Shown here piece by piece: positions 16,730 through 56,830 of a stretch of DNA of 64,000 nucleotides (its first letter is position 1; every line of letters begins with the position of its first letter). This DNA comes from Pomacea canaliculata. Lineage: Eukaryota; Mollusca; Gastropoda; Architaenioglossa; Ampullariidae. The stretch is from contig NC_037599.1 in the NCBI RefSeq assembly GCF_003073045.1, forward strand, positions 17,834,055 to 17,898,054, in the 5' to 3' direction. The position numbers were made by a program, and so were the translations under genes. The notes below the pieces were generated by a model. The model worked only from the letters and a program-made list of their open reading frames with translations, did no database searches and was not told the origin of the DNA.

Positions 16730-18436
16730 ATGCCTATTCAGCATTCAACATCAAGCCAAGATGGCGACTGCTATATCTCCCATACTTCCTACATCATCTC
16801 CGCGCTGCCGACAGCGCCTGCAGGTCACCACGTCAGCAGACTGACCTCTGACCCATTCATGGAGTCATGGGGACGCTACGCGCCTGTGAAGCAGGAGCTA
16901 CGGGACGAAAATGATGCGACAACTCTCGGTTCCAAAGAGTTACGGGACATGTCGACTCGACTCTCCTCTCCCTCCGTCAAAACTCAGCGCCGAACTTCGA
17001 CCGCACACCTGCACGTGCCGGGTCAAGGTCATCTTGGCTTACACGTGGCAGGCGCGTGGGGGTTAAGACACCACCCGTACGGAGGTCGCCGCGAGGTCAC
17101 CCTTTCACACCCTGAGGTCACTCATCTCAACCCCTACTCACAGCAAGAGATCCGGCGAAGCCCCGACTGCTATCCAGACATGACAGAAAGCCCTGTCCAA
17201 ACCTTGAACGTCCCACATTTCAGCGGTCAGTATGACAGCGGAGGTCAGCAGCACCCGTCTCCTCCTGATCGTTGCCCCCAATCTCAGAGTAGTCCTTACC
17301 TCCATCGAAGCATGTCCGAAGATGACGAGAGTGGTCAGGATGACAACGACTACAGCGACAACACCAGCGGGTCTATGCACAACAGCAAGATTAGCAATGA
17401 TGATGGTGATGACGGCCCAACGAACCTGGAGACGCGGAACGGCTTCCGGTTTTCCGCCCCCCAGTCCGATTTGTCCCCTGTAGGTGCAGTAAGTCAGCCG
17501 AGAGCCAAGCGGGAGTTTGTGCCCGACCACAAGAAAGACGCCACCTACTGGAACAAGCGGCTCAAGAACAACGACTCGGCTCGCCGCTCGCGTATCAAGC
17601 GAAAAACGATGGAGAAAATCATGGAACACCGCATGGCGGAGCTGCAGAAGGAGAACCTAGAGCTCCGCTACGAGCTGAACGCCTTGAAACGAATGCTCGG
17701 GGATCAGCTGACATCTGACCTCAAACCCCCAAAGCCGTCCTCGTCTTTGATGGCCTCTTCGCCATCTTCCTCCTCCTCCTCTTCTTCTTCGCTGTCGTCG
17801 AATTCTCCTTTCTGTTTGTTAACTGCCAGCAGTGAGTCCGGCTACGAGGATCACTCCAACAGCTCGTCCGCTATGGAAGCCGCTGAGGAATCAGGAACGA
17901 AACACAATGGTTATAACTTTCCCATACCTGTCTCCCCCCAGGCGCCCGCCGTTACCAAAGGAATGTCTACCTCACCGAGTTTCCCAGACGAGATAGAATT
18001 TTCGAAAAAGAGTGTCGCGGTTGACGAGACAATGATGTACAGACCCCCCTTGCATGTTCAAAGCCGCGGTTTCAGCAACCAGACTGGCTCTGGTCGAAAT
18101 CAGGAAATCGTTCCGAACACCCCATTCTTGTCTGTGCAGCGCGTCCATGACGTCACCATCAACCGTTCCTCGCTGTCTGACTCTGGCACCGATTCGTCCC
18201 CCTCTCGCAGCCCCTGCAGGTCTGAGGGGAGCCCCGACAGCAGCAGCAACAGCAGCAGCGGGCTTTTTCAGACCAGTGAGGAGAAAGGAAGCAGAGGCAT
18301 CCTGGGAAACACCAAGAGCTGGGAAAAATGCGTGGACATGGACCTCCTGCAGAAGATCCCGCTCAAGTTTCGCATCAAACGCGGGCTGCAGCCAATAGCT
18401 ACCGACAGTCAGTTGTCACGCGACGACCTGAAGTGA
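16730..18436 (+). CDS. NFIL3/PAR-like bZIP transcription factor
   Basis: A 568-residue protein encoded in one exon, starting at an ATG 37 nt after a strong acceptor (AG at 16691-16692). Residues about 268-325 form a bZIP domain. It opens with KKDATYW, has the basic-region signature NNDSARRSR and a leucine-zipper heptad array, and resembles NFIL3/E4BP4, vrille and the PAR factors (KDxxYWxxRxKNN). The usual AAKRSR core is replaced by SARRSR. The N-terminal half has Ser/Pro/Asp-rich disordered sequence and a SUMO-type VKQE motif at residues 53-56. After the zipper come a poly-Ser run and a C-terminal basic/hydrophobic motif, KIPLKFRIKRGL, similar to the C-terminal LPHKLRIK segment of NFIL3. The expected role is a nuclear regulator binding D-box DNA, often circadian or metabolic. 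Assignment to vrille/NFIL3 rather than PAR is uncertain. Confidence 0.85.
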   Translation: MPIQHSTSSQDGDCYISHTSYIISALPTAPAGHHVSRLTSDPFMESWGRYAPVKQELRDENDATTLGSKELRDMSTRLSSPSVKTQRRTSTAHLHVPGQGHLGLHVAGAWGLRHHPYGGRREVTLSHPEVTHLNPYSQQEIRRSPDCYPDMTESPVQTLNVPHFSGQYDSGGQQHPSPPDRCPQSQSSPYLHRSMSEDDESGQDDNDYSDNTSGSMHNSKISNDDGDDGPTNLETRNGFRFSAPQSDLSPVGAVSQPRAKREFVPDHKKDATYWNKRLKNNDSARRSRIKRKTMEKIMEHRMAELQKENLELRYELNALKRMLGDQLTSDLKPPKPSSSLMASSPSSSSSSSSSLSSNSPFCLLTASSESGYEDHSNSSSAMEAAEESGTKHNGYNFPIPVSPQAPAVTKGMSTSPSFPDEIEFSKKSVAVDETMMYRPPLHVQSRGFSNQTGSGRNQEIVPNTPFLSVQRVHDVTINRSSLSDSGTDSSPSRSPCRSEGSPDSSSNSSSGLFQTSEEKGSRGILGNTKSWEKCVDMDLLQKIPLKFRIKRGLQPIATDSQLSRDDLK

Positions 18437-23825: not shown

Positions 23826-23833
23826 TATATAAA
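23826..23833 (+). promoter_or_regulatory. TATA box of the histone H1 gene
   Basis: TATATAAA lies 121 bp upstream of the H1 start codon in otherwise GC-rich sequence. It predicts transcription starting near 23857 and a 5' UTR of about 90 nt. Confidence 0.8.
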
Positions 23834-23946
23834 GCCTCGCTCTGAGCGTGTCGGCCATTCCGCTCCTGTCGTCTGCGCTGCGTGAACTTGTCGTCGCTGG
23901 TTTACCTTGTCGACGCATCGTCGTTAACCTCGCTCTTCCTCTCACC

Positions 23947-24582
23947 ATGGCTGATACTGCGTCCGATTCACCAGCTGCTGCCTCTGCTACAGCCCTCGGC
24001 AAGAAAGCTGCCAAGGCTAAGAAGCCAGCGAAGCCGTCCGAACACCCGAAGTACAACATCATGATTGCTGCCGCCATCGACTCTTTGAAAGAACGTGGTG
24101 GCTCGTCTCGCCAGGCCATCCTCAAGTACATCCAGTCCAACTACAAAGTGGGCGACGAGGTGGCCAAGATCAACGCTCGCTTGAAGACTGCCCTGAAAGC
24201 TGGGGTCAAGGCCGGGACCCTCAAGCAGTCCAAGGGGACTGGGGCATCTGGATCCTTCCGTTTGGGCGAGAAGAAAGTCGTCGCCGCGGTTAAGCCAAAG
24301 AAGGCCAAAAAGCCCAAGGCTGTGGTCAAGAAGCCCAAGTCGCCCAAGAAGCCTGCCGCCAAGAAACTCAAGGCTTCCCCCAAGAAGGCTGCAGCTGCCA
24401 AGAAGCCTAAAGCCGCTGCTGCCACCAAGAAACCTAAGGCTTCCCCCAAGAAGGCTGCAGCCAAGCCTAAGGCTTCAAAGCCAGCTGCAGCAAAGAAGCC
24501 CAAGGCTGCCAAACCAGCTGCCAAGAAAGCACCGAAAAGTCCGGCTAAGAAGGCAGCCAAGCCCAAGGCTTCCAAGGCTTAA
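23947..24582 (+). CDS. Histone H1 (linker histone)
   Basis: A 211-residue linker histone that binds nucleosomes at the DNA entry/exit site and compacts chromatin. The ATG at 23947 is chosen because it is in a good context (CACCATGG) just before the typical MADTAS N-terminus; the frame stays open further upstream but lies in the 5' UTR. Residues 1-32 are an Ala/Pro/Lys tail. Residues about 33-107 are the winged-helix H15 domain ([31 protein letters not shown]). The rest is a Lys/Ala/Pro tail with repeated SPKK or SPAKK sites for CDK phosphorylation. There is no intron, and a histone stem-loop follows 35 nt after the stop, so it is probably cell-cycle regulated. No core histone gene is within this window, so it is either solitary or apart from a cluster. 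Confidence 0.95.
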
Positions 24583-24635: not shown

Positions 24636-26879
24636 ACACATTTTCCAGGTGAGAGCATATCTCTCCACCGAAAGTTTGCAAATGTGTTTTACCTGTGTTT
24701 CTTTTTTACTTTTCAGAAAGTTATGCAAAACTAGCCCCTTCCATCTACCTCCAAATAACAAATGGTTTAAGCACTTTTGAGCAACCTAAATTTTTTGAAG
24801 CTGTTACATTTGCTTTTCCTTTTTCTAGGACCAAGAATCTTTAGAATAGAATCAACTTGAATTAAGTTCATCATCCTCCATACAAACTTATCTTTTGGGA
24901 AAATTCATAACTTGTTTGAGTGAAATTGCCATTATATAATTTGTAGCTACCACTTCAAGTCCCTCGCACTACGATTTAAAACACCTACCTAAATGTGTAG
25001 TAGTGTTGGATAATGTTGTGGATACAGGCGATGGGTGAACAAGAGCCATGTGATCCTGCACAATGATAATTTCCTCAAATAAAAAAAAAACTGCTTTCCT
25101 AGCAAGGGTAACTAATTGTTCACTTATGCAGGATACTTACAGAGGTGAAACTAAACTGTCTAAAGCAGGGGTGGGCAATTAATTTTCCCAAGGGGCCGCA
25201 TGAGAATTGGGATGGTTTTAGAGGGCCTGACTACTATAGTTAACTCCGTTTTACCCAATACTGTATATATAGTATATATACTGGTGGGCCGGTCAGACAC
25301 AGGAGGCGGGCCGGCCTTTGCCCAGGTCTGGTCTAAAGTAACTACATATAGATGCATACGCTGTAAATCATAACATTTATTTTCAGAAAAATCAGTTTGG
25401 TTCTTTTTTGTCACTAATAATTGTTTTGAATTTTATGAACTTCAGACATGAAAAAAGCAGTATGGTTCCTGGATTTGACCTGCTTCAGTCCCAACAAATA
25501 TTTTAGCACCCCCATGCATAAGAAATAAGCTGTGTGGACTACAGTGATGGGCAGTTATTTTCAAACTAAAAAACTTGAAAAAATTATTTTATGCAAGCGT
25601 CAAGGCAGCAAACAAAGTCATTATACCTAGAAAGTGGGAATGTGCAGTTTACAACACATATGGTTAAAAGGAAAAGATTAGAAAAACTATTGAGTGTAGG
25701 ACACAAGACAAGAGCACAGTGGGGAACTTGTAATGTATCTTTGAACATTGCTTCCAAGACTGAAGCTAGTTTAAAGCACACATGAAACAGAAAAATAAAG
25801 GAAGATTAACAAACACAATAAAGCTGAAACTTATTTTTTGAGCCCTGATAAGAAAATTGCTAATAAAATTGTGGCCCATGTTATATCCTCTTTCTTTAAT
25901 CTGTAATAAATGAAATTAAAATCAGTGGCAGATGACCTGCAGTTATTTTTGTCTGCATGTTATGGAAAACATCCTTAAATGGTCCTTAGAATTTTAAGTG
26001 TGGTCAGCCCTGTATGAACTCTGAAAAGACTTAAACGATATATCACATTTTTACAATTAATTGACTCTCAGATCATTTAGTGAACTAGTAAGAAAGTATG
26101 AATGAACATAATAACATATATCAGCTAAATGAGAGCAGATAGAAATATACTCAACCAACAGTTATTACAATGAATGACTATATGGCCTCTGAAGCACCAA
26201 AACCCATATATTCTATGGTAAAAAAATCAACTATTTAAAAATCTTTATTTAAAATGGAGAAAAGCCTAATCCCCATAACTCACACTGTCAAGAGTTTCCA
26301 GGTCTTGCAACTTTCTAGAGAACGAATGCGATGTGAGCGTAGGTGAGCGACATTAGCACCATGTGATCATATATATAATCCTCCACCCACCCCCTTTTGA
26401 CAAAGGTGTATGGCTGCATATTTAAAAGAAAAGAAATTTCTCTGTAATTCATACTCTTAATGTTACAACAACAACTACTACTACTACACTTTAGTTGCTC
26501 CTTGGCGAACATCTAAATATGTCAGTGCTTCCAGGCATGAGTGTTTGTGTGTATCCTTAGTTTGCCATTGTACTTCCCCCCTCCTCCCCCACATCTTAAT
26601 AGTCATAAAGTTTCTTGCTCATGGTGTAGTCTTAATTGAAAGAATGAGAGTGATTGTAGAAGGAAGAAGAATATAGGATTTAAACATGGAAAGATCAAGA
26701 AGTGCGGACTGATCATTGTGCATGTGTTTAATCATGTCTTTCGTTTTTGTGTCGATATGTTTGGTTCTTTTATCCATCACCTTTACCATCATCCCTCTAC
26801 ATATGTTCAACATCAACACCATAAGACTGCACAAGAATAAAAAAGCACTTTAATCGAGAATGGATTGTTATCATAACAA
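24636..26879. other. Spacer between H1 and the ZP-family array
   Basis: Apart from the MITE at 25166-25330 I see no gene. It is AT-rich, with short open frames only. Confidence 0.55.
25166..25330 (+). mobile_element. hAT-type MITE, copy 1
   Basis: This 165-bp element has the identical 8-bp direct repeat GTCTAAAG at 25158-25165 and 25331-25338. Its inverted ends are CAGGGGTGGGCAA and CAGACCTGGGCAA. The TIR and the GGCC-rich, TATATA-centred body recall Tip100/Zaphod-like hAT elements. It is non-autonomous. A second copy in opposite orientation lies at 27489-27689. Confidence 0.88.
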
Positions 26880-26885
26880 TTTATT
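26880..26885 (-). terminator. Poly(A) signal equivalent for paralog A
   Basis: AATAAA on the minus strand. It lies in a block aligning with the AATAAA-containing block downstream of paralog B (33204-33209), where flanking words such as GAATGCTC are shared. It is probably the ancestral end of the duplicated transcription unit. Confidence 0.5.
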
Positions 26886-27339
26886 TTGGAATGCTCCGTG
26901 ACTGAAATAAAACACCAGTCAACCTCCTTTTTTAATTATTATTATTGTTAATGTTAATAATAATAATAAAGTCTGACAGGGGGCCTTACTCTTGAGTTCT
27001 TTGAAGAAATAACTAATGTTAGTTGCTTCCCTTTAATAACTAAATTTTACGTGCTGACAGGTGCTCAAAGTTCACAGATGAAAAGCATGCCGCAATCAAT
27101 CGCTTTATATATTTCTTTTGTATAGACGAAATAGTCATAGTGAATCACTTCAACGAAACATGAATATTTTATGTAAGCGCTTATCACAATACAGTTTTTT
27201 CTTTGTTTTGAGATTCATAACAAAACCCAGTGGTCATTATAAATCCTTCCGGTTCTTCAATGTTATTAATCCATTATTTATTTCAATGTTTATTTCATAT
27301 CCAGCAAACTAATGTTCCAGTTGTCTCTTTTGATCAAAG

Positions 27340-27440
27340 AACATGAAGAATTAAACTCAGCTGGTGAAGCCTCAAAGTCAGTATGAGAAGTGAAGCATAC
27401 AGAAACCCTTGTGATAGTCACTGCGACATTGGTAGCTTTT
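27340..27440 (-). pseudogene. Relic of the terminal (GPI-tail) exon of paralog A
   Basis: The sequence aligns with the last exon of paralog B: both contain a TCACTTCTCAT-type core followed by CTTCACCAGCTGAGTTT or its near match. It would be the hydrophobic C-terminal exon of an ancestral full-length copy, but it no longer reads as one clean frame. It shows that paralog A was once complete and lost its middle and 3' exons. Confidence 0.55.
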
Positions 27441-27474: not shown

Positions 27475-29275
27475 GGTACTCTCTAGACCAGACCCTGGGC
27501 AAACGCCGGCCCGCGGGCCGGATCCGGCCCGCCTCCTGTCTCTGATCGGCCCGCCCGCTGGCCCGCCCACCAGTAAATATACTATATATACAGTATTGGG
27601 TAAAACTGAGTTAACTATATTAGTCCGGCCCTCTAAAACCATCCCAGTTTCTCATCCGGCCCCTTGGGAAAATTAATTGCCCACCCCTGCTCTAGACCAT
27701 GGTAGGAGGCTCTAGTGCTGTGGTAAGTTTTAGGTACGTAGGTAGAAGGGATTTATGGTGGGGTAGCCTGTGAACCATATTTTAGTCCATGGGTAAAAAA
27801 AAAAAACACTTGTAGTGGGGTATGCTTTACTCCGTGGGTATGAAATTATTGTAGTAGGGTAATCTGTAAACCGTGGATAGTAGGGTCTTTTGGTAGGGTA
27901 ATGTGTAGACAGTGGGTATAAGAGACTTGTGCTCTGTTGGGGTCATCTGTAGATCGTGGGTAGAATGGTTTGGGGGTTGTGTAATCTGTAGACCATAGGT
28001 AGAAAGGTGTGTTTGGGTAAGTTTTATACCGTGGGTAGGAGGGTGTTGTGTTGGGGTAAGTTTTATACCGTGGGTAGGAGGGTGTTGTGTTGGGGTAAGT
28101 TTTATACCGTGGGTAGGAGGGTGTTGTGTTGGGGTAAGTTTTAGACCGTGGGTAGGAGGGTGTTGTGTTGGGGTCATCTGTAGATCGTGGGTAGAAAGGT
28201 GTGTTTGGGTAAGTTTTATACCGTGGGTAGGAGGGTGTTGTGTTGGGGTAAGTTTTAGACCGTGGGTAGGAGGGCGCTCTGTTGTGGGTCATCTGTAGAT
28301 CGTGGGTAGAATGGTTTGGGGGTTGTGTAATCTGTAGACCATAGGTAGAAAGGTGTGTTTGGGTAAGTTTTATACCGTGGTAGGAGGGTGTTGTGTTGGG
28401 GTAAGTTTTATACCGTGGGTAGGAGGGTGTTGTGTTGGGGTAAGTTTTAGTTTTAGACCGTGGGTAGGAAGGGTGTTGTGTTGGGGTCATCTGTAGATCG
28501 TGGGTAGAAAGGGTGTGTTTGGGTAAGTTTTATACCGTGGGTAGGAGGGTGTTGTGTTGGGGTAAGTTTTAGACCGTGGGTAGGAGGGCGCTCTGTTGGG
28601 GTCATCTGTAGATAGTGGGTAGAATGGTTTGGGGGTTGTGTAATCTGTAGACCATAGGTAGAAAGGTGTGTGTTGGGTAAGTTTTATACCGTGGGTAGGA
28701 GGGTGTTGTGTTGGGGTAAGTTTTAGACCGTGGGTAGGAGGGTGTTGTGTTGGGGTAAGTTTTTATTTTTACCGTGGGTAGGAGGGTGTTGTGTTGGGGT
28801 AAGTTTTAGACCGTGGGTAGAAGGGTGTGTTTGGGTAAGTTTTAGACCGTGGGTAGGAGGGTGTTGTGTTGAAGTCATCTGTAGATCGTGGGTAGAATGG
28901 TTTGGGGGTTGTGTAATCTGTAGATCGTGGGTAGAAAGGTGTGTTTGGGTTAGTTTTATACCGTGGGTAGGAGGGTGTTGTGTTGGGGTAAGTTTTAGAC
29001 CGTGGGTAGGAGGGTGTTGAGCTGGGGTAATCTGTAGACCGTGCGTAGAATGGTTTTGTAGTTCGGTAATGTGAGGACCCTTGGTAGGAGGGTGCTGTGT
29101 TGGAGTCATCTGTAGACCGTGTGTAGAAGGGTGTTGTATTGTCGTGAGTTTTAGACTGTGTGTAGAAGCGTTTTGTGGCTGAGTTATCTGTAGACCGTAC
29201 GTATGCGGGTCTTCGCTCTGGGTAATCTGTATACAATGGGTAGGAGTGACTTTTAGTAGGGTGATTTAAGTCAGA
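27475..29275 (-). repeat. 39-bp coding-type minisatellite
   Basis: About 40 tandem units of mainly 39 bp, with 36-bp variants and a few units with indels. The plus-strand core is GTGGGTAGGAGGGTGTTGTG. On the minus strand the unit encodes a 13-residue repeat such as TPSYPRSKTYPNT. A hAT MITE (27489-27689) is inserted in the distal end unit. The proximal third is read in frame as part of paralog A. Three similar 39-bp units occur in exon 11 of paralog B (33649-33765), so the array probably grew from that exon. Confidence 0.88.
27489..27689 (-). mobile_element. hAT-type MITE, copy 2, inserted in the minisatellite
   Basis: A 201-bp element with perfect 8-bp target duplication CTCTAGAC at 27481-27488 and 27690-27697. 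Its ends match copy 1 in inverted orientation (CAGACCCTGGGCAAA on the left, complement of CAGGGGTGGGCAATTAA on the right). The duplicated target belongs to a 39-bp repeat unit, so insertion came after the array had formed. Confidence 0.88.
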
Positions 29276-30616
29276 TGGTCTTGTTTCGAATTCAACAGAG
29301 CTCTGTGTCTGTGTTTGTGCCTGAGCCATGCTTTCCATATCAAAATCGCACGACACCGCCATTGTATGATTAGTGTTCAGCATTTCTTCATTCTTTTCTT
29401 GTAGTGCCAGCAGCCACTCGTAGGAGTTGTTTCCTGTCTAAACAAACAAAACCTCACATATACAGACATGTGTACGCGTGTACTCATACAATATGATTCA
29501 TGATTATATGAACATGCATTTTGTGTTATTTATATATATATAATTCAGTATGTCTCATATGTATATACAGGCGATCACATAATGAAACATTGGGGCAAGG
29601 TTATAGTTAATTAGTGAGTCACGTGACATCTATTTATTTGTTCGTTGCCTTTTTTGGTTACATTTTGCTTATATATCTTTTCAAGCCGTAAGAGTTTTCA
29701 GACTTATTACACAGGTTGTATCCACACCTTTTTGCCACCGCAGGTCACGCCCACTTGCCGCTCGTTGTCCCGGGTGACGGGGATCTTGACGGAGTAGACG
29801 CCGGTGTCGTCGTATCTCTCCTCGGAGCCGCTGCACCAGGCCTGGGGGGTGCCGGCCTCGTCTGTCAGCTGCACCGTCTCGTACTTGCGTCCGAAAGGGT
29901 TAATCCTCACCAGCGCGTAGCGACCCTCCGAGGGGCTGTTGACGCAGTGGTAGGTGACCTCTGCCCTTCTCGTGCCTGAACGTCAGACGAGAAAACTTCT
30001 AAACTTCTCCTTTGACTGTGTGAGGCAACAATTTTTTCACCCACCCTTGTAGAGGAACCCAACGATATATAATCAAGTCTGTACACACTGATTGTACTTA
30101 GATGAAGGGGTAGGCAAAAATGTGAGAGTAAGGTAGGGACGATACGATACGATATTCTTTAATGATTCAGTCATCTGGCTCAATTTCGTAGGAGGTTTAA
30201 CATGGTAATAAATGATATATAATGAATATACTCAGGGCTTCTGCTAAGGCTAAATTTTTTGGGGTCCCAGGGACCCCTTCTTCAGATTTTTAAGGGGTCC
30301 CTGTTCTTCGCCCAAATTTGAAGGGGACCCCATTGACGAAAATTGAAGGGGTACTGTATGCAATTTTTTGCGTAAGCAGAAGCCCTGATACTTAGTATGT
30401 TTACTACTAGACTTGAATTCTTGCATGCATAGATATGTTAAAAAATACACATAAAATGTCTACGACGAACAATCAACTTTCAAAGAGAGAACAGCAGGAC
30501 TTACCATTATTGCCTTCAGGGGGAGTCACTGAATTATCGTTGATTGTTTGTGCGTGGACTGTGTCCTGAGCTGTCAACACCAGCAGAAGTAGGGCCAGCC
30601 AGGTCCAGGGAGCCAT
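28769..30616 (-). CDS. Paralog A: secreted ZP-N protein with Tyr/Pro-rich 13-residue repeats
   Basis: Three exons fit in frame: 30505-30616 (signal peptide, MAPWTWLALLLLVLTAQ), 29728-29975 and 28769-29437, totalling 1029 nt or 342 residues. Exon 1 ends in phase 1 at GTAAGT and joins directly to the phase-1 ZP-N exon, so the loss of the lectin and EGF exons leaves the frame intact. The ZP-N half keeps four cysteines (YHC, WC, TCGG, SCDF). After SCDF the frame runs without a splice into the minisatellite: about 12 repeats such as TPFYTRSTDDSNT and TPSYPRSKTYPNT, ending at TAA. ZP-C, the furin site and the GPI tail are gone. Such a protein would be secreted, not anchored. The style recalls Tyr/Pro adhesive or matrix proteins, but that is analogy only. 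Transcription is not proven; a spliced link to the old last exon at 27.4 kb is an alternative. Confidence 0.6.
30233..30387. mobile_element. MITE in intron 1 of paralog A
   Basis: This 155-bp element has inverted ends CAGGGCTTCTGCT and the complementary AGCAGAAGCCCTG. The ends are flanked by ATACT at 30228-30232 and 30388-30392. The interior has inverted GGGGTCCC/GGGACCCC words. It is hAT-like by its CAGGG ends, but the 5-bp duplication is short for that superfamily. Confidence 0.65.
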
Positions 30617-30677
30617 CGTCGCCAGCTCACCTCTTCTCAGTCTGATGTCGAATACTGCGCACCTGTCACAGCTCCTC

Positions 30678-30722
30678 AAATATATCCTGGAATGTCAGGT
30701 GATCAGTCAGACAACAACCAAT
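30678..30722 (-). promoter_or_regulatory. Conserved TATA/CCAAT promoter block, paralog A
   Basis: On the minus strand, GGATATATTTG (TATA-like, complement at 30678-30684) lies about 65 bp before the start codon. An inverted CCAAT box (30718-30722) lies upstream. The same arrangement, with the linking words GTGACAGGTGCG and CTGAGAAGAGGTGA, is found upstream of paralogs B and D. Confidence 0.55.
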
Positions 30723-33203
30723 GAGCAAGTTTCAGTTTTTTTTACTCTATTTTCGGTCAACACCTCTTGCGTCAAGCAAATTAACCCGAGGGCTTTATCC
30801 TCTGCTTTTGTTCAGCCAGAGGAAACGGTCTCTTCAGTACTTCTGAAAAAAATCTGTAAAATACAGCTTTCAGTTATATTTCTGGATTTCCCTGTGGAGT
30901 CTGAACGGTTTCAGACAAAACGTTCACAAACCTTTTGCTTCATTTGTGTCAGTCATGATAAGTTTCTGTAAGGTGCAACGGCATTGCCAAGCGCCCATAC
31001 ATACAATAGGTACATACAGTAAAATTTTATATTATGTTTTTAAAACGTTACATGAATATTATCCACTATGCCACCTCAACAACCGAATGGTCTAGAACTT
31101 TGGTCAGTGTTTCAACACAGAGGTTGCCAAGACAACCATAAAACTTGTTGCTTGGAAGTCAACAGAGCATCCACATATTAGTTTGTTACAAAAAATACAG
31201 TTGAGAACTTCAAGTACATGCTCAGAGGAATTGTCCAATCAGCAAGCCCACTTTTGTAACATCACCAGAATTGAAGTCTTGACCTCCTTCAAAGCCCAGA
31301 CAAGAACTACAAGATTCAAAAGTTTTTATCATGCGAAGATGACAGAAGTTTTCATATTGTAATAACTAGTATCAAATAATGAACTCAGTTGACAATAAGT
31401 TTGAACTCAGGTTGGCCTTTAAGTCCAACGTTTAATGCCAAATATGGAAATTTCCGACAAGGTACGGACAAAGCCAGCTAAGTGCGGGTTGAACCCTTAA
31501 ACCTGAAATTCGACTTCAACGCCCGAAAATGAACTTTTGTGAACAAAGGGGACGTGATTCTTTAAGCATCATTTACCATTCGATCCTGATCACGTTCATC
31601 ACCTTTAGGTCAACTCGTGCACTCAGGTACTGTCCCCCACCTTTACATTTTAGAAAAAAAAGTGAAAGAGCAATGCTATATCATTGTGTAAACAACTGAG
31701 TACAGTCACGATTTCGATAGTAGGAAAAGAAGGAGATAACCAGCTTATGGAGGTATTTACCACGGAGGTAGGTTTCAAAAGCCTCGATAGGAAGTTACTG
31801 AAGGGGACAGTAAGCAGCGCTCACGAGTGTAGAATGTAAACTTTTTGCGAGAAAACTCTATTTTGTTGATATTTCTAAGTTTCGAACAGCAGCTTAAAAT
31901 AACATTCAAAAGACTCAGTGACTCATACAAAATTTTCTTCTCGTGATGCCAAAAAACAGTGAGTGTGTGTGTGTAGAGGGACATTGTCATTGTGTTTGCA
32001 GGACAATGATCCACTCAAGGACCAGAGAGACGACGCATAATATTTGAAATAATACCGTGGGCTCTTATGAGAACAACAAAGAAAGTCTTGTGATACAATC
32101 AAATACTACCCTAAGTTTATTTCGTGATTGAAAGAGGTTGGAAAAGAAAACTAATTTCAGGACTTTAGCACAAAGGACAATGTTTGAAACCCAAGATTTG
32201 TAGTCCAAACCTGCTAAACAGAGTGTAGTCTGTTTTACCTGAACTTTAGTTGTCAGATGGAAAACAAAACAAAAACCCATAATATTTAAGCAAAAGCTGA
32301 TCTCATTAGGTGGGTGGAAGGGTGAACACAGTAGAGAATGGGACAGAGAGAACCCAATGAGCGTTCACAAGTAAAAACTTTTCAAATTTATCCTTGAAGC
32401 TTATCCTTGAAGAGTTTCAAAATCGTGTGGCCATGTCAATAAACAATTTAAACAGACATCGTATTGAAAATAACACGGTTCCTCATCGCGGCTTTGTTTA
32501 TGTATACGAGATGTATGTATACGTGTGTATGTATGCGTGGTGTGTGTATACGTGATGTATGTATTCATACACGTTATATTGCGGGGAAGTAACAACACAC
32601 ACACAGAGAAAAAGGTGGGGGATGGAAGAGAGAAGAGATTACTATACTCGACATTCAAGAAGACAAGTACTGTGTTCTTGTGTGTATGTGTGTCTGCTTG
32701 TCTCTTGGAGTGAAAGGAGTCAAGAACAATGAAACTTTATTTCAGAAGTCGTATTCCTCACTCTCTGATACATGTCTTCAATGTTTGGCGAACGTCCAGG
32801 TGTGTGGCAGTACATCAAGGCATGGGCATACAGAATGAATAAAACAGCCAGACGACAGAAAGAGGAGGACTAAATTTTCTCAGTGAGTCAACCAAACACT
32901 TTTCTCGTTTGCAGTTGACGGTGTTGCATGCAAGCATTTAAAGGCTGGGTGTAGGGGAAGACAGGATGATGGTAAAATAGGTAATTACTAGAATTTGTTT
33001 ACAAGCTTTTATGATAATCATGTAGTCAGCAATTATGTGTGGATATGCATGTGTTTAACATTTTTATTTTTGTTTCTTTGTCTGACTCTTTTTCATCCAT
33101 TCACCAATTTTTTAACCAGTCTCTACTTTGTTCATCCAACATCGTAACATTGCAGAAAAACAAAGAAGGCGTTTGATTCAACAATGTAGTTTTATCATAA
33201 AAA
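30723..33203. other. Spacer between paralogs A and B
   Basis: It contains blocks alignable with the regions upstream of B and D, for example around 31765-31880 versus 39640-39740 and 58270-58390 (shared words such as CACGAGTGTAGAA). The tandem duplication unit thus reaches well upstream of the start codon. No extra gene is seen. Confidence 0.5.
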
Positions 33204-33332: not shown

Positions 33333-36300
33333 TCATTTCCAGTTTTTTTGGTATTCTAACCTACGTTGTCTATGTCGATGCTGAATTTCAACTACACCTT
33401 GATGAGGATGAGTGAAGCTCAACTGGTGAAAGCCACGAAGAAAACCCAGGATGAGAAGTGAAGCCCAGGCCACAGGAGCCCCTGTGTTAGTAGCCGCCAT
33501 ACTGGTGTCATCTCTGATGATGTTGATGACTGCAGTGGCAGACTCACGGGCGGTGGCTTCTCTCTTCCTGCGATACCACGTGGTCCGCCAGTAGTCGTAG
33601 TAGGTGCTGCCCCAGGGGTAAGAGGAGGTGCTGCCCCAGTAATTAAAATAATTTGTAGACCAAGGATATGGGGGACTTGTGGTACGGTAATCGTTGGACC
33701 AGAGATACGGGGATCCTGAGGTGGTGTGATCCCCATACCAGGGATAGGATGATCTGTTGGTGGTGTGCAGACGATTCCTTCGTTTTAGTAGAGCATCGCT
33801 GTGTTTAGAACAAAGAAAGCGAAATGAAATTATTCCAGTCTCTTGGAAGTAGACAGCCGTGACACGACCAGCAATAACCTAATGAAAACGCTCCAGGCTA
33901 TCTATGTCAAACATGTAGACTGATCTGAATAGTGATATTTACCTTACACATTATTTGATACAATGCTTCTCCAGAATGTTAAAATTTCTTTCTGTGCTTT
34001 TTACAAACAGGATTCTTTAACTTAATAATTTTTAATTAATAAGCTTAATTAACTAAGTCACTAGCTTACCTCAGTGCAGAGCGAATCTTCCCGTGTGAAG
34101 CAGAACTGGAAGGAGCAGGTGATCTGTACACTGTTGTGACCAGGGAAGGTAAACAACTCGAATGGATCGGTCATGACGGTGCCATTATGTCCCCTTAGCT
34201 CAGATATGATGGTGGAGCCGCTTGGTGGACAACTAAAGTTGACAAACAGCATGTTTAGTTGTTTAAAGATTTGTTAAATTAACTGTTCAATTTTGAGTAT
34301 ATACTTCTGGTGATTTTACCTGCTGGCGTCAATATATTTAATTTCTGAAAGCAATAAAATTTGCCTCCATGATCAGAAAACTTGGATATAAAATATCTGC
34401 CACAGAGTGATGGGTAACTTCTCCAACTTCTATTTTCCCACAGACTTTGTCTTTTCTACACGATCTTGTAGAGCGTAGCTTATCTATGGATAAGCACTAA
34501 TTACTACTAATATATATATATAGTTCTTAATGTTTGTCTGTCTCTCTGTGTTGTCAACTTTATTTCATATTGATGGCGCCGGAAAAAATGGCGACACGAT
34601 GGTATGACTGATTACTATTTGTTTTGTTCTGTTGCTGGTGTTTGAGATGACTGAATGTCCACTGACTTTTGTGTCTAAACACTAGTGCGAGCGTTTGCAA
34701 GTCTGGGTGTGCATGCGATTGGTATTTGTCGGGTAAGTGGCGAACTCATATTCCTAGTGCAATGTCAGTTGAAAACCAATTCTTATCTTATCGTATCTCG
34801 AGATAGCTTAGTTGTCTCACCCATCAGAGTCAGTCAGAACGAGGCTGTAAAGACCATCTCCAGAACTGACGATACAGTCATAAGGAGACACACCCTGAGC
34901 ACTGATACCTGCAAATACAATATCTCTATTGCCTATCATAATATTATATAAAGGATGTTCCGCTCCCTTCCCCCGGACTCGATAAATAAAAATAAATAAA
35001 AAATTAAAAAAAATATCTCGGTTCGTTTTATTGCCAAGTAGGAAGTAGAACATCCCTCGTACACACATTCACATCGAAACGAATTTAACTAAAGACACGA
35101 CAACCTCGACTTCGCTACACTCTCATCTGCTCATCTCTCCTGGTTACCCGGGGTGATGGTGAGTCGCATGCGCAGTTGCACGTTGGCGCCAAGTCGAGCC
35201 TGTTTGAGAGCTTGTCCCGTGTAGGGGTCTGTCACCTCTAAGGTCACGAACTCGCGAGAATTCACGGGTTTTCCACCGAAGGGAGTTCGCCACCTTCACT
35301 GTCACACAACAGAATGCTTTTAAGTCGCACAAGCCATCACACAGAATTTGTACCACGATTTTCATTGTCCTACAAATTTGCATATTTATAGTTTTTGAAC
35401 AACTGTTTCTTGTCTATTATATTTTACAAAGGACAAAAATTGTGTACTAATTTTCCTAGCTATTTAAATGTGACCCGAAATTTATTTTAGCATTTATTTG
35501 AGAATACAATTTTAAATATAAAATGTATAGAGCAAAATTTGTGTAAATCCTGTTTCCTACACGACAACACTCTGTGACTGTGTCAGAACCATGTTGTCCG
35601 CCTCATTAAAATCACACGACAGCTCCATCCTGCGGTCAAGGGACAGCATCACTCCATTCTTTTCGCGCAGTGCCAACTGCCACTCGTAGGCGTTGTCTCC
35701 TGTCTACACAAACAACCTCTAGTTATGCATGAATACACGTGGGCGCGTATTCAACAAGTGTCTATATAGAGTTCAAATGTATATTATTATTATTATATGT
35801 GTCTGGTGTTTATGTATTCATAAAAAAATAATATGACAGATTTTTTTTTCTTGATATTCCATCACACAGGCTGTACCCACACCTTATTGCCACCACAGGT
35901 CACGCCACTTGCCACTCGTTACCCCGGGTGACGGGGATCTTGACGGAGTAGACGCCGGTGTCGTCGTACCACATCTCGGAGCCGCTGCACCAGGGCTGGG
36001 GGGTGCCGGCCTCGTCTGTCAGCTGCACCGTCTGGTACTGGCGTCCGAAAGGGTTAATCCTCACCAGCGCGTAGCGACCCTCCGAAGAGCTGTTGACGCA
36101 GTAGTAGATGACCTCTGCCCTTCTCGTGCCTGAACGTCAGACGAGAAAACGTCTAAACGTATGTTGGCAAAACCAGGACAATTTATGAAAAACGTGGGAT
36201 ACTTAAACCTACGCAGGGTGACACTCTCTCCCCTCCCCCAGCTACCCCCTCCTCAAATATGACAGTTCAGACTCGCAAACAGTATAATTGAAAAAAAAAG

Positions 36301-49050: not shown

Positions 49051-49648
49051 GCACATGTACATATAGCTAATATACTTCAACAACCACTATTTAGCTTCAA
49101 GCGGCGTTCGACTCTTCTTTAAACACCCAAGAGAATTTTCTCTAATAAATTTAAAGAACAAACTAAAGCAAGAAATGAGCAAAGTTTTAATACGATAATA
49201 TAAAAAGTAAATTTCTGCTTACTTCGTTGTGTACCTTTCTGTAGATTAATTATTCTAAGCAGACAGAATCAGTCGACTCTTCAAAGATTAACTTCTATTG
49301 TATGACTAAGCTAGGAGCCATACGCGATTCGGCCAATCAGACTTTTTGCTAAAAATAAAATAATATAATAATAATTATTATGAACAATATCATCATTTTT
49401 TCCCTTTCGACCAAACTACATTGAACAGTCCATCGTCGACGGTACGGAAGTTCTTAAATAAAATATCTTTAATTTCACATGCATTGAAAAATATTGAAAA
49501 TCATTTGTTTGCTAAATGGTAATCTGTTCACATTCTGCAGAGAAACACATCATGGACACGACGACGCGGTGGTAGGGGTAGATTAGACAGTGATAAATCT
49601 GTTTAAATAAATAAAAAAAAAAACTTTCACAGTAAGCAAACAAAATAT

Positions 49649-52600
49649 TTAGACGCTGAAGCTACGAGAAAGAACAAGGATCAGAAGGGTTGCCCAGGCA
49701 ACGGGATCAACAGCGTTAGTCGCCGCCATACTGGCAGTCTTCCCTGTGTCTGTGCTGCTAGATTCTGGTGACAGAAATTATATAAACAAGTAACTGAAGA
49801 TTATAAATCTTAAGCATCAGACAAAAGACTAACATATCTTACATGGTTTAATATAGAAAAGATGGCTATCAAAGACTTTCCAGAATTCTAATTTTAATAG
49901 AAAGAGATTTCTACGTAAAAATTCGAAACATAATGATTAAATGAATTAGATTAAATGCAGGTTTATTGAGCTTCGTTATGAAAATTGTTTTATAAAGCTA
50001 CGACATCTACGAGCGTCATTTATACAAAAAGAGTGTAAGGTTTCTCGGTTTTGTAAGAATGTTTTTAATACCAGTCAGAATGATGACTTCACCTTTTATG
50101 ATCTCGACCACCGCGGTGGCGAACTCAGGTGAGTTGGCTTCTCTCTTCTTGCGGTTCCAGTACCAGGTGGAGGTCCAGTAGTCGTAAGTGCTGGTGGACA
50201 CATAGCTAGAGGTGGTCAGACTAGTGGTGGTCAGATTCACCATTCTCCTTGTATTGCATCGCTATGGTGAGAGCGACAAAACCGTGATGAAAACTCTTCC
50301 ATCTTAAGGAATTGCAGTCAGCAGCAAAGGCAATAAAAGCAATGTGATTTAGCGAAGTACAAGAAGGTTCTTTAGCCATGAATAAGATAACATTCACTCA
50401 TTCATTTCATGCTATTCGCTGCTTGACTAGCTTACATCAGAGCAGAGTGTGTCCTCTGGTGTGAAGCAGAACTGGAAGGAGCAGGCGATCAGTAGACTGT
50501 TATGACCGGCAAAGGCGAACAACTGGAAGGGATCGGATTTGACCGTGCCATTATGTCCCCTGAGTTCAGACATAACAGTAGATCCACCTGCTGGACAGCT
50601 AGAAATGAAAAACTAAGACTTATCCGTATGTTTAGTTAAATTGTGCCTCTACCAACATGTTAATACAATTTCTGCATCTGATTTATTTTTGAGACCTCCA
50701 GAAAACGTTTACATTTGTACGTAAAGGGTACACAGAAATCGGTATCTAATATTACAGTGAAGTTATTTTCTCTTGGATCTGGATTTGTGTGAATAAATCC
50801 GGAGTAAAATGATGATAAAGATAAAGGATAAATTGAAAAAACTACGCGTTTCATTATGATGGAAGGAACACTTACAATCAGAGAGAGAGAGAGAGAGAAT
50901 GACCGACAAAGATAAAATGGCTAGTATTGAACAGCTTAACCTTTCCACCACAGAATCGCAGGCAGAACTGAAAACTGGTTATTTTCTCTCACCCATCAGA
51001 GTCAGTCAGAACGAGCTGGTAGAGGCCATCTCCAGAACTTGCGATACAGTCATACGGAGACACTCCCTGGGCTCTGAGACCTGCAATACAGTTTTGATTG
51101 TCTCCCTTGTGAGATAATTCTTTTGACTAGGACTGGGTGGCGTGTTCTGGTCATCCCGGGACTGGCGGTCAACAAGAGTAGATACATTTATTGGCTTGCC
51201 ACAGAAGCCTTTATTTAATTTAATATTAAAAGAAAGTCGCTCATGCTCAGGGGATCTCAAAATGACAATGAGAAGTGGTGATAATGATGACGACGATGAT
51301 GATTATTAACATTGTTTGCATGATGAGGCTTCTTAGCCTCGGGGCTAGAGCACTGATCTGTGAAGAAGAAGCTCGTTAGTTCAACTCCTCCCCTTGTCAA
51401 GCAATTTTCTTACTCACATCCATATTGCTTTTTTCTGTTTAATTATATGGTTATATAGCGTGCAACTAATCAATTTCTTGCTCTTCAATATCTCGTCTAG
51501 TATCCTGCTTACCCGCGGTGGTAGTGAGTGTCATGCGCAGTTTCACATTGGCGCCAAGTCTCGCTCTTGTGAGAGTTTGTTCCGTGAAGGAGTCGGTCAG
51601 CGCCAGGTTCACGAACTCGCGAGAATTCAAGGGTTTTTCCACTGAAGGCAGGGCATTGTTTGGTTGATCACTTTCTCTGTTTTAAAAACAAAGTATACAT
51701 AGCATGGAAGGTCATATAGGGCTTTATGCTATATAATGTTTTTTTTATGTTTTTAATGTGCACTTTTTAAGCACCATTCTTCATATACTTTTTTATTCTT
51801 TGTTCTTCAAAAGTATTGGGAAACGATTAAAGTTTTAAATAAATTTTTACAATAACAGAGGCAGGGAGAAAGAGAATAAAAGGTAAAATTTGACATAATG
51901 TGTATGATATGCGTACACGGCAACGTTCTGTGACTGTGTTTGAACCGTGCTGTCCGCTTTATCAAAGTCACATGATAGCTCCACTCGACGGTCAAGGGGA
52001 AGTAACACTCCTTTTTTCTCTTGTAGGGTCAACAGCCACTTGTAGGAGTTGTGTCCCGTCTACGCAGATCAAAAAGCTACATGTTACACCTGATCTCAAG
52101 AAATCATTCATTTGGGCAGTTGCCAGAAAGTAAGAGGAGAAGTTTTTTCGTTTATTCATTCATTTTATTCTACCTTTAATTTCTTTCTAAGCAGTTATTT
52201 TGCTTTTTTTTTAATGGAGAGATTGCTCACGCACCTCAATACCACCACAGGTCACGCCCACTTGCCACTCGTTACCCCGGGTGACGGGGATCTTGACGGA
52301 GTAGACGCCGGTGTCGTCGTACCACATCTCGGAGCCGCTGCACCAGGGCTGGGGGGTGCCGGCCTCGTCTGTCAGCTGCACCGTCTGGTACTGGCGTCCG
52401 AAAGGGTTAATCCTCACCAGCGCGTAGCGACCCTCCGCCGTGTTGTTGACGCAGTAGTAGATGACCTCTGCCCTTCTAGTGCCTGAAAGTTAGGAGGGGT
52501 AAATAAAAATAATCAAGTTTACGTTTGGGGAAAAGAATGTTATTTATCTTATTTCTATCATTTCTTATTCACTAATTATACTGCATATATTAGTATTAGC

Positions 52601-55600
52601 ACCCGCACTGCTGCATTTATATTGTGTAGAGATGTGTTTATGTTAGCCAGGCTTTACTACTATCACTGTCTCCATTATTATCGTATATTATAGCATATTT
52701 CGTTACGATGATATGTAATGCTTTTATTAGAAATGCATTTTTTTGGACATGGGGATGTCAAGAGGAAAAGGGAATATTCAAAGTGACGTTTAACTGCTCT
52801 AAGAGAACTTACACCCACCACTGTACATATATTGAACTGTACATACAGTGCATTGTTTATTTTTATGTAAGGTTGGGAAAACTTGTGAATGAACGAAGAA
52901 AGAGAGGAGCAGTGACAGTAAGACTATCAGGTGGACAGATGAGCAGAATGCATGAAAATAAAAAATGGAAAGAGAAATATAAAAAAAAAAAAATTAGTAA
53001 GGAAATAGAACTTAGATAGATTGACAAACAAACAAAAAAACAAACAAAACAAAAAAACAAAATTTACGTCATCTGAATCCTCCCATATATGTTCTCTCCA
53101 ATTTTCACGAATGTAATGTTCATCCACTTGGTTAAGTGCAAAAAGTTTACAAAAGTATAGACGCCGCTTTGATGTACTCACGTGTGTAGCAGTAGGGACC
53201 TGTCCACCCATCCTCGCAGCCATACTGGCACGGTTGTCCCCCTTTACACGTTTCTCTGTAGCAATGGCAGGCCTGGTCACAGTTGTCTCCCACAAAACCG
53301 TCAACACACCCTGTATGCAAAAGTTATCTCCTCGTAGTCCCCAGATTTCATGCATTTCTATCGTAACCTAAAAGCTCTTAAAAGCTAACCAGAATGAAAA
53401 TTATTTTTAAACGCCTTTAATTCAAAAGAAGATACTTATTTCCAAAATATGAGCATCTTTCACTGGTTTATGTTTATTCATCTTTTCTTTTCCTAAATCG
53501 TCTTAAAATCTCTACCATTTTCTTTTTTTCTCTCAGGAACTAAAGGCTAGGTGCCCCTGCACTTACTTGCTCCGCGTTAAAATGTCTCAGGGGTCGTAAT
53601 CACTATACACTTTATGTGTATTTCTATGATGTATAAAGCGTATGAAAAAAATTAAGCCAGTATGGAAAACATGATATAAATTCTACCTTAAGTCTTAGAA
53701 AGACTGAAATTGCATGGGCACCTTTTGTGCAAAATTGGGAGCTATCAAACAGAAGACATTTAGCCTTATATCAGAATAAAACAACGAGACAAAGATAAAG
53801 TTGCATGACATTAGATCCGAATACTTAAACCAATTTTATGAGTGACAACAAGACTAATTAATGTAAAATTAAGAAATTATTCAATTTAAAATCATAGGTG
53901 TCAAGTTCATTGCCGTGCCATGTAAAGGAAAAGCTATTTAATCTCTACCTTTGTCTCTCTCGCAGATGTAGGGTCTATAATCCCAACAATATCCTGATAT
54001 CCACGTCCTGTACGGATAACTCATAAACGCACAGTGCCCACAGCAACTATGGACCAAGTCGCCGTAGTAATTCTCGTTGGTGTACTGTAAACAGTGCATC
54101 AATTATTATTAACGCTTTTCACTCACTCACTCACTCACTCACTCACTCACTCACTCCTCACTCACTCACTCACTCACTCACTCACTCACTCACTCACTCA
54201 CTCACTCACTCACTCACTCACTCACTCACTCACTCACTCACTCACTCACTCACTCACTCACTCACTCACTCACTCACTCACTCACTCACTCACTCACTCA
54301 CTCACTCACTCACTCACTCACTCACTCACTCACTCACTCACTCACTCACTCACTCACTCACTCACTCACTCACTCACTCACTCACTCACTCACTCACTCA
54401 CTCACTCACTCACTCACTCACTCACTCACTCACTCACTCACTCACTCACTCACTCACTCACTCTGATTACTTACGTTGAGTATGAAAGGCTCCATCCCTT
54501 GCCAATAATAGTCGCCATAATCATAATATCTCTTGAGACCAAGCCATATCTCCCCGGCGTATCGAAATGGTACAAAAGCTACACACACATATACATAAAT
54601 ATTAAACATAACATGTTTTTACCCATTAAACTGTAACGATACCTTGTACACATTTATTAAAGTATTACACACAAATACACACACTTACAGACACACATAT
54701 ATATATACTCAGGCGGATACGTGTTTGCTTGTTTGGCACCGTAGGACACAGTGAGTGAATGAATGATCATGCGTAAAAGTATAACAAGGGAATAAAAGAT
54801 AACTGTTAGTTAATCAACAGCCTTATGGTGTAATTATTACACAACGACTGAGGACTACTCACTCTCCACAGCTCTCTGACGTTTCTCTGATACGATAGTT
54901 AACAGTCGCCCGCCCATGTCCCCGCAAGACTGAGTCGCACTGTCAAAGTTCTCCAAAATGTCCACCAGCTGAAGACACATCGGCCCGTCAGAGTCGGAGA
55001 CGAGGGTCCAGCTGGTGTTGGGACAGGCGTATCGGGGCGACACCACGTCATCGCACACGTAGATTCCACTGGCTGGTAGAGAAACAACTCAGTAGATGAA
55101 TACATATACCTAGAATCGTAACAGTGTATAAAATTACTGCTTTTTTTAATACAGTTTTAATTACGTGAGTGGCGCGGTTTGTATCTTTTATTACAAATAT
55201 CTATTTCATTACCAAATAGGGTTATACACATACACCACACATAGACACATAACAAATGTACAGACATACAACATTTCACGACCATCGGACCGTTATTTTC
55301 ATCGGGAAGAGGCTCAGGTGCAATCCAATCTATAAGCTTGCAGCTGACAGATGTGAAAACAAGCACAGTGAGACTGCAAGCACCTAGAAAATAGATGGGT
55401 ACAGACAAGAGCTAGATCATTCTGAACAACAACGGTATCAACAACGCACAGGTTAAAAAATATTATAAAACAGAGTACAACTCAAAGTAGTGAACTGCGT
55501 TAGGTGCATGGGAGCAACCCTTTCCAAAGTTGAAAGTTCCACGGCAGACATTCGCATAATGTTTTCCACCAAGTAAGTACGTGTGTGAGACGATTAGTTT

Positions 55601-56830
55601 ATTGACATGGACAGAGTTAAGGCATTTGAGACCGAAGATCTGAGAAGGGTGGTCTGTATCTCCTAAACAGAATACAGAACCAATGACTTTGTACAGAGCA
55701 TGGTCACCACCCTCTTGGGACACCATAAAGCCCCCTTCGCAAATAAGTCAATAGAAACGCCAAATTTTACTTGAAGATTAGAAAACTACTGAGGCTGCAT
55801 AAAGCAAGAGTAATTTATAGCTTTGTTTATTCCTTGTTACTCCTCGAGGAGCGTAGGGTCTCAACAGAGTAATTTATATCCCCAGGGCAATCTCAAGAAC
55901 TTCAGGATAAGCGTGCTCTTCTCGTAGTTACAGTTTGTTGCCTTGGCCACGGCGACAAGACCTTATGTTTCTTTACCATAGGGTATATTTGACACTGATT
56001 AAAACTACGGCCTTAGAAATAAAAAATCTTCAGGGTCTGAGCACGGCTTTAGAGTTAAGGAAAGAAGACAGCTGTCATTGTCGCCCCCAGCCATCGACTT
56101 ACCATCTGTTCATAACTTTGGCCCCATAGTGCTATACATATCTGCTCTTAACATATCTGTGAACGGTACTGGAAAAGGTGGTACGGATGCAGTTCAAGTC
56201 GTTTTGAGGACAGTAAATAGCTCCAACTAATCACACGTATAATGTCTTATGTGTGTCCTAAACTAAGGCAAAGATAAGGTATTTATTTAACAAAACTTTT
56301 AGTCAATTAGAATAATACCGAATATTTATGAAACTGGGATATTTCAAAATTTTATTTAAAGAAACTAATTCTTTTTAAAGAAACGTAATACAAGCCTTAA
56401 CTACATTCCTAACCGAACAATAGTTAGCCTTTTGCGTTTAATTTTATTTATAAAATATAGATTATAGACGTTCGATGGTTTTTTAGACTGTGACACAGTT
56501 TGAAGTTAGTTTCTCTCAGTAAATGAAAAATGTGTTGCAGAAGACAAAGATTTACGATTGTTTATAGGTTGACGTTAAGTTAAGCCCAGGATAATCTTTT
56601 TATGCGCAGATACTTTGTGAATAAATTACATTTTCTGAACTTTCTGAGTTTTGATGGTATCGTCCACTTCTTTTAATTATCTACACTGAACAGCAGAACT
56701 TACCCACAATACCTTCGGCGAAACTCATTGAAATCTGATGATTGGAGTTATTGCCGAATGTTTGTGCGTGGACCGTGTCCTGTGTCTTCAACATCACCAG
56801 AAGCAGGACCAGCCAGGTCCAGGAAGCCAT
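49649..56830 (-). CDS. Paralog D: intact C-type lectin/EGF/ZP-domain surface protein, 598 aa
   Basis: Twelve exons with consensus GT-AG borders total 1797 nt in frame: 56704-56830, 54863-55072, 54475-54578, 53949-54084, 53182-53310, 52235-52482, 51917-52059, 51513-51676, 50993-51080, 50436-50598, 50093-50261, 49649-49764. Residues 1-23 are a signal peptide (MASWTWLVLLLVML). About 43-192 are a C-type lectin-like domain with WLGL and RPYICE, a vicinal Cys pair (SCCGHC) and no EPN or QPD sugar motif. About 193-235 are one EGF/laminin-type repeat; 236-360 are ZP-N with four Cys; 366-505 are ZP-C (SPYDC, DSDGCP, CSFQFCF). A Tyr/Trp/Ser/Thr linker leads to RKKR at 541-544. The last 17 or so residues are hydrophobic after small residues, as in a GPI signal. 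ZP proteins usually polymerise after furin cleavage, so this is probably a matrix- or coat-forming lectin. Function is unknown. Confidence 0.88.
51328..51394 (+). mobile_element. tRNA-like SINE head or tRNA relic
   Basis: It has an A-box-like TAGCCTCGGGGCTAGAGC and a B-box-like TTAGTTCAACTCCTCC about 35 nt apart, the spacing of a tRNA gene. Acceptor-stem pairing is poor, so I prefer a tRNA-derived SINE fragment to a working tRNA. It lies in intron 8 of paralog D, in the opposite orientation. Confidence 0.4.
54120..54463. repeat. (CACT)n tetranucleotide array, 344 bp
   Basis: About 86 copies of CACT with a single interruption near 54157, in intron 3 of paralog D just before the acceptor side of exon 4 in transcript order. 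The same intron of paralog C has only short CACT/CGCT patches (45115-45180), and B has almost none. It reads as a Thr-His-Ser-Leu repeat in a long plus-strand frame that is not a gene. Confidence 0.97.
55463..55726 (-). other. Unidentified 87-codon open frame in intron 1 of paralog D
   Basis: It starts at an ATG in fair context (GGCTTTATGG) and ends at TAA. The composition is protein-like: mixed codons, and five cysteines in FCLGD, LKCLN, NVCRG and GKGCSH. It has no low complexity and no similarity to the lectin, EGF or ZP exons. The frame is open for a few codons upstream (ICEGGF), so it may be an internal exon and not a start. Intron 1 of B and C lacks this block. Cys spacing weakly recalls rhamnose-binding (SUEL) lectin domains, but I cannot confirm that. 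A second minus-strand stretch at 55260-55400 (ending GPMVVK) might be a partner exon. Confidence 0.3.

Follow-up and report, generated by a model that had tools for sequence, protein, structure and literature searches.

The window examined here is a stretch of 64,000 nucleotides from Pomacea canaliculata (C10:17834055-17898054), whose minus strand carries a family of zona pellucida (ZP) genes. A preliminary description of this DNA drew attention to one member, here called copy A, in which the exon closing a ZP-N domain reads on in frame through a Tyr/Pro-rich minisatellite. Comparison with the neighbouring genes suggests, with a probability of roughly 0.75, that A is a tandem copy, lacking internal exons, of the lectin-EGF-ZP gene B. 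Copy A keeps the signal peptide and ZP-N exons of the family, and its repeat unit is the one carried by the linker that precedes the cleavage site in exon 11 of B.

Copy D, with 12 exons, serves as the family reference. Its signal exon is followed by three lectin exons, one EGF exon, two ZP-N exons (6 and 7), and three ZP-C exons (8-10). Exon 11 carries the last Cys, a Tyr/Ser/Thr-rich linker, RKKRE, and FATAVVEII, and exon 12 the transmembrane (TM) segment. Eight adjoining stretches were added to the window, with positions beyond it given in extended window coordinates, and the genome searched comprised 440,159,624 bases. ZP-N exon matches were found at ten places on C10, all on the minus strand, and copies A to J together with part of K were mapped from 30.6 to 139.8 kb in extended window coordinates.

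Origin of copy A

Copy A duplicates B. Exon 6 and the adjoining intron edges (29 and 22 nt) agree at 93% over 299 nt between the two copies, and exon 7 at 74.5% over 145 columns. Trees pair A with B with a support of 79 for exon 6 and 82 for exons 6 and 7 combined. By blastn, the 5' flank and exon 1 of A match B at 78.7% (30741-30531, 211 nt) and D at 79.4% (30734-30531). At the other end of the gene, the 3' flank of A scores 149 against B with a shuffle maximum of 60 (n=200), and C, D, and a control stretch do not rise above their own shuffles. Between the array and this flank lies a degraded remnant of the TM exon, which scores 71 against B (shuffle maximum 35, n=1000) and also gives P <0.01 for C, G, and H. 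The remnants of exon 12 and of the 3' flank follow the repeat in the order expected of a family member.

The interior of the gene has been lost. Exons 2-5 and 8-10 were sought in A and none was found, and all of them were found in paralogs, for example exons 8-10 in B, D, and H. For exons 8 and 10, A was compared by blastn with B, D, E, G, and H; the queries that placed exons 5 and 9 were read off the opposite strand, which still marks the location. Loss of the lectin and EGF exons keeps phase, as had been proposed, since exon 1 ends in phase 1 (G/gtaagt, the splice point marked by a slash here and below) and exon 6 also begins in phase 1, the arrangement of D and B.

The repeat of A is the family linker. 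Ahead of RRKRE, exon 11 of B contains the repeats SYPWYGDHTTSG, SPYLWSNDYRTTS, and PPYPWSTNYFN. A profile of the 12 in-frame units of A scores B exon 11 above 2000 of 2000 shuffles (best window P 0.0005), and at the DNA level the array scores 64 against the same exon with a shuffle maximum of 49 (n=500). Linker length ranges from 28 to 74 residues among the eight paralogs measured. The match to B exon 11 indicates that the unit was a family linker before it was a minisatellite, and that A represents exon 7 fused to exon 11.

The preliminary description had taken the ZP-N exon to run into an unrelated minisatellite and so make a possible new gene, a reading that does not survive the three copies of the unit in B. 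On that account, loss of the donor let the exon read into unrelated non-coding repeats. The donor is indeed gone and the array was found at one locus only (a whole-genome search with it returned five places, all in this locus), but capture of an unrelated sequence is contradicted by the match to B exon 11 in both protein and DNA. With the exon 12 and 3' flank remnants also following in the right order, such a capture is very improbable.

The exon 7 donor of the family reads ..GCCGT/GTAxG in D, E, G, and H and GTCGT/GTAGG in B, and annotated proteins matched to E and H splice at this point (..QSQNVAV/ESDQPNN..). It is absent from A. The octamer AAACACAG occurs both in the junction zone of A and at the exon 11 acceptor of B, so a short-homology deletion would fit. 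Strict local alignment of the junction alone with exon 11 of seven paralogs recovered mostly 6-9 bases (P 0.09 to 0.98), and the same alignment with the end of exon 7 and its intron scored better (P 0 to 0.14). Under looser scoring, the junction together with the first repeats reached 42 against B exon 11 (P 0.002; best shuffle 44).

Several observations weigh against this origin from B. The exon 7 tree groups B with other copies instead of A (support 66). At the 0.05 level the TM remnant is matched by B, G, H, and C, and D, E, and F give no match. On exon 11 of the other paralogs the unit profile gives little, with weak results for D (0.010) and F (0.031) and values >0.1 for C, E, G, and H. 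The junction of exons 7 and 11 can be placed to the zone 29320-29266 and no finer. Additionally, the annotated protein of copy I has a Lectin_C match without VERL_C, the ZP module profile of the family.

If A did descend from B, a deletion of ~2 kb would have brought exons 7 and 11 together, after which unequal exchange may have expanded the linker repeat from ~3 to ~40 units. The frame was presumably kept through this expansion because the unit was 39 nt from the start. The product, having no ZP-C, cleavage site, or membrane anchor, would be secreted without polymer control or attachment. Without an anchor, this ZP-N could pair with that of neighbouring proteins or bind their ligand, acting as a cap or decoy.

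Predicted product of copy A

The frame at 29437-28769 (minus strand) is open for 222 codons from the acceptor tttag/ACAGG, reading TGNNSYEWLL...VSCDF before it enters the repeats. VSCDF contributes the fourth Cys of the ZP-N begun in the exon at 29975-29728, and the four Cys of the domain (VTYHC, AWC, VTCG, VSCDF) align with those of the paralogs. The SCDF motif ends at 29342, and 190 codons are then open up to the TAA at 28771-28769. Hence the earlier statement that the ZP-N exon continues in frame past the usual donor holds, with the family donor absent.

The predicted protein has 342 residues, exon 1 included, its signal peptide being assigned by eye and by paralog match. VERL_C matches residues 75-171 weakly (0.004, below the cut-off). 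The furin-type cleavage site (RKKRE type), the external hydrophobic patch (FATAVV type), and the TM anchor of the paralogs do not occur in A before the stop, and no ZP module was found 3' of the repeat. The gene model agrees with the proposed product of a signal peptide, ZP-N, and a Tyr/Pro/Thr tail of ~12 units, and with its signal peptide and ZP-N without ZP-C it has a predicted ZP-N-only secreted architecture. If made, the product is predicted to be secreted, with a disordered Ser/Thr/Pro/Tyr tail behind the ZP-N. For such a protein, if A is made, the most plausible role is that of a soluble, flexibly tailed ZP-N serving as decoy or chain cap. The SYP and Tyr-Pro units may resemble mussel foot protein repeats. 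A search of solved structures by sequence returned nothing matching A, and with the family profile the lectin part was the sole matching region among the best 60 of 138 matches. Rfam gave nothing at gathering thresholds.

The repeat array and its assembly

Twelve complete units, with starts from 29256 to 28830, lie in frame. Ten are 39 nt and two are 36 nt long, with zero frame-changing indels, which bears out the claim that both unit lengths keep frame; the next unit is cut by the stop. The array extends past 28769 to ~27690, giving ~40 units in total, and among the 27 further whole units, the stop-bearing one counted in, 9 are of a length that is no multiple of three. A second frame on the same strand is open across all of 29265-28769. 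The length of the open frame is therefore weak evidence of coding, and as proof of coding it is ruled out.

When two higher-order blocks of the array are aligned over 315 columns, they show 2 substitutions, of which one lies at a block edge, along with four one-base indels and one six-base indel. An excess of indels over substitutions is the reverse of the usual mutation ratio and is typical of residual long-read error. The published assembly was made from PacBio reads with Pilon correction, as stated in the assembly description of the genome paper (PMC6129957). Taken together, this suggests that the stop at 28769 may have been introduced by error, in which case the tail would be longer in reality. 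That the stop and the frame breaks downstream of it are assembly errors, with the real tail running through some or all of the ~40 units, is put at slightly less than an even chance. The near-identical blocks differing mostly by indels speak for such errors, but indels between recently exchanged copies can be genuine. Assembly error would be compatible with a maintained gene and with a dead copy alike.

A miniature element, placed by eye in the hAT class, sits within the last repeat unit, flanked by duplications of GTCTAGAG at 27697-27690 and 27488-27481. Of 1840 first-look candidates 40 were scored, and the 39 other copies among these are 94-98% identical, which makes a young insertion probable. 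The genome paper describes a recent hAT-Charlie burst in its treatment of repeats (PMC6129957). An insertion in the last unit speaks against the tail being both long and intact. The element end CAGGGGTGGGCAA recurs once more, as an exact copy on the plus strand, at 25166-25178.

The annotated model C0Q70_16835 (minus strand; ~28000-28500, 24141-24578, and 17972-18415) joins some of the array 3' of the stop to the antisense of a histone H1-like frame and a bZIP-like frame, both recognised by eye, and looks spurious. The H1-like frame, at 23833-24582, contains a 66-bp tandem repeat within its Lys/Ala/Pro-rich tail.

Selection and the state of the gene

Changes specific to A in exons 1, 6, and 7 comprise 6 silent and 23 replacement, close to the neutral expectation of 26-28% silent. 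By exon, silent and replacement changes stand at 1:11 in exon 6 (75 codons used; versus B, D, E, and H), 2:9 in exon 7 (versus B, D, E, G, and H), and 3:3 in exon 1 (versus B and D). The ratio of replacement to silent substitution rates (dN/dS) over the three exons is 0.44-0.47 for A with D, E, and H and 0.23-0.39 among D, E, and H themselves. The A branch amounts to ~0.14 substitutions per site. Purifying selection on the ZP-N or tail of A was not found in the tests made, and from these counts selection on the A branch looks relaxed or absent.

Within the repeat, an excess of variants at third codon positions, the sign of purifying selection, was not found, and the 5' units trend in the opposite direction. 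In the eight most diverged units, third positions hold 5 of 37 distinct variants, and 5 variants are silent versus 9.4 expected (one-sided P 0.03, uncorrected). Over all 12 in-frame units there are 8 silent variants versus 10.9 expected (P 0.13), and over 39 units 16 versus 17.1. On the repeat peptide, purifying selection is therefore not indicated; if anything, there is a slight hint of its reverse.

The neutral-like A branch favours a degenerating copy over a maintained gene, and degeneration appears the likelier of the two, at somewhat better than even odds. In a dead copy the open frame would be a fossil, preserved mostly by a 39-bp unit that is stop-free in two of three frames and by the little time elapsed. 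The open second frame is consistent with this, as are the loss of ZP-C, cleavage site, and TM segment, and the breakage of exon 6 in other members (C, F, and G). No A product was found among annotated proteins in the best 8000 candidates (~188-598 long) and a further 24 (~90-285), a range from which shorter or longer proteins would escape. Set against a dead copy, exons 1, 6, and 7 carry no stop, frameshift, or lost splice site other than the exon 7 donor, despite the divergence of the branch. In a crude simulation of 29 neutral changes, the chance of no stop was 0.35 and that of no frameshift 0.10 (the indel rate being assumed), and their product leans towards some past or present constraint. 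Variants of the 12 in-frame units create 0 stops versus 2.3 expected (P 0.024), in a stretch that was picked as open.

Less likely is a maintained and fast-evolving gene under diversifying selection, whose secreted ZP-N with its flexible repeat tail would serve an egg coat or other ZP matrix as decoy or cap. It would account for the open exons 1, 6, and 7 with intact splice sites between them, the conserved 5' flank, the 12 five-prime units without frameshift, and the shortage of silent variants in the most diverged of these. Replacement changes make up 20 of the 23 in exons 6 and 7 (P 0.105 for so few silent). A function of this kind would also suit the filaments formed by isolated ZP-N (as described in PMC1479692) and the decoy role proposed for abalone VEZP14 (as modelled in PMC3567151). 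However, the supporting tests are weak or uncorrected, the protein searches gave no product, and the array is frame-broken beyond the 12th unit with a young element in the last. Clearly less probable again is the fullest version, in which A would be a live, positively selected gene for a soluble ZP-N decoy. Its long Tyr/Pro/Thr tail would vary in repeat number, between perhaps 12 and 40 units, and internal deletion would have derived it from a lectin-ZP receptor that was membrane-bound and belonged to a VERL_C-type family. Were this true, a gamete- or matrix-recognition decoy would have been caught soon after its birth, and its tyrosine-rich repeats could also cross-link into the egg covering. 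If A is instead dead, it teaches plainly how little a long open frame says when it lies in a 39-bp array, and how indels in this reference blur the boundary.

The surrounding cluster

Copy A belongs to a tandem cluster of about ten genes that combine signal peptide, lectin, and EGF parts with a ZP module of VERL_C type. Lectin, EGF, ZP-C, cleavage site, and TM are all present in the full members. Pfam reports Lectin_C (8.8e-10) and VERL_C (1.9e-8, above the cut-off) on D, and both profiles pass on the annotated protein of H. VERL is the abalone egg-coat receptor for sperm lysin. The VERL_C match therefore points to a ZP module of the type known from gastropod egg coats. Feature coordinates are collected in Table 1.

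Table 1. Features of copy A, its sister gene B, and the reference paralog D, in window coordinates.
Feature	Position	Strand	Evidence
5' flank of A, putative promoter/5' untranslated region, conserved with B and D	30617..30741	-	blastn
A exon 1, signal peptide MAPWTWLALLLLVLTAQDTVHAQT..., phase-1 donor gtaagt	30505..30616	-	sequence, paralog match
A exon 6 equivalent, first three ZP-N Cys, phase-1 acceptor, phase-0 donor AAG/gtgtgg as in B	29728..29975	-	
A fused exon 7/exon 11: ZP-N end, repeat tail, TAA 28771-28769	28769..29437	-	
Junction zone, exon 7 sequence to exon 11 repeat, family donor lost	29266..29320	-	alignment
In-frame stretch of 13-residue units, 12 complete and one cut by the stop	28772..29256	-	unit count
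Rest of array, frame-broken in the assembly	27690..28768	-	unit count, block alignment
hAT-type miniature element (class by eye)	27489..27689	-	8-bp target duplication GTCTAGAG
TM exon (exon 12) remnant, degraded	27345..27433	-	local alignment
3' flank common to A and B, AATAAA 26885-26880	26667..26944	-	alignment versus shuffles
Sister gene B exon 11 (+12), three 13-residue repeats before RRKRE	33399..33798	-	sequence, profile
Paralog D, family reference gene model, 12 exons	49637..56830	-	paralog comparison, exon map, Pfam

Several other members show irregularities. Exon 6 carries several small frame breaks each in C (43829-44079), F (73821-74068, extended coordinates), and G (84772-85017, extended coordinates), which suggests that a good part of the cluster is decaying or poorly polished. 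In B, exon 6 (35880-36130) has GG where A and D have GGG, a homopolymer indel that is either real or an assembly error, and at this point the annotated LOC112574010 terminates in QVA. B also lacks the intron that separates exon 11 from the TM exon, the matches to the two being contiguous at 33508/33505 where D has ~350 bases, and the start of B exon 11 is out of frame with its Tyr/Pro repeat (33399-33798). Nearly all of the D intron between lectin exons 2 and 3 is filled by a TCAC array of ~86 copies (54119-54463, 99% regular).

Comparison with known systems

Within the cluster, the annotated genes LOC112574009, LOC112574010, LOC112574011, and LOC112574242 share the signal and ZP-N exons with A, as well as the linker unit in the case of B. 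The full lectin-EGF-ZP paralogs differ from A in having kept lectin, EGF, ZP-C, cleavage site, and TM. A literature search on Pomacea canaliculata zona pellucida returned nothing on these genes by title, and no wider claim is drawn from it.

Signal peptides followed by ZP-N without ZP-C are found in PLAC1, Oosp1-3, Papillote, CG16798, and F55A4.10, as in A, and some of these proteins carry long extra sequence according to their description in PMC1479692. The same source describes how isolated ZP-N can form filaments. The ZP-N-only proteins listed there have expression evidence, whereas A is known from sequence alone, as the deletion product of one cluster. Standalone ZP-C proteins of nematodes resemble A in that one ZP half has been lost and the product is still predicted to be secreted. 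However, it is the opposite half that is missing, and the strong stabilising selection described for them (in the relevant part of PMC7456536) was not detected in A.

The preliminary description knew of no parallel for the architecture, but a close gastropod precedent exists in abalone VEZP14 (vitelline envelope ZP protein 14). As set out in the account of this VERL paralog in PMC3567151, an N-terminal ZP-N is followed by ~20 Thr/Pro-rich repeats, presumably unstructured, and VEZP14 binds lysin through its ZP-N and is modelled as a decoy. Both architectures are a gastropod ZP-N followed by tandem Thr/Pro-containing repeats. VEZP14 keeps a C-terminal ZP module and has a 7-residue unit, whereas A has no ZP module after the repeat and a 13-residue unit (compared with the VEZP14 description in PMC3567151). 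Unlike in that description, the sole ZP-N of A is that of the ZP module itself, and its repeat derives from the linker that precedes the cleavage site.

Precedents exist for ZP-N-only proteins, for ZP-N with Thr/Pro repeats, and for coding repeats. What is new here is the route from a lectin-EGF-ZP receptor and the linker as source of the repeat. Copy A shows how a VEZP14-like architecture of ZP-N and repeats can arise, with the middle of the gene lost, the frame kept, and a linker repeat expanded. Were A expressed, the decoy route that has been proposed for egg-coat proteins would have a recent example in nature.

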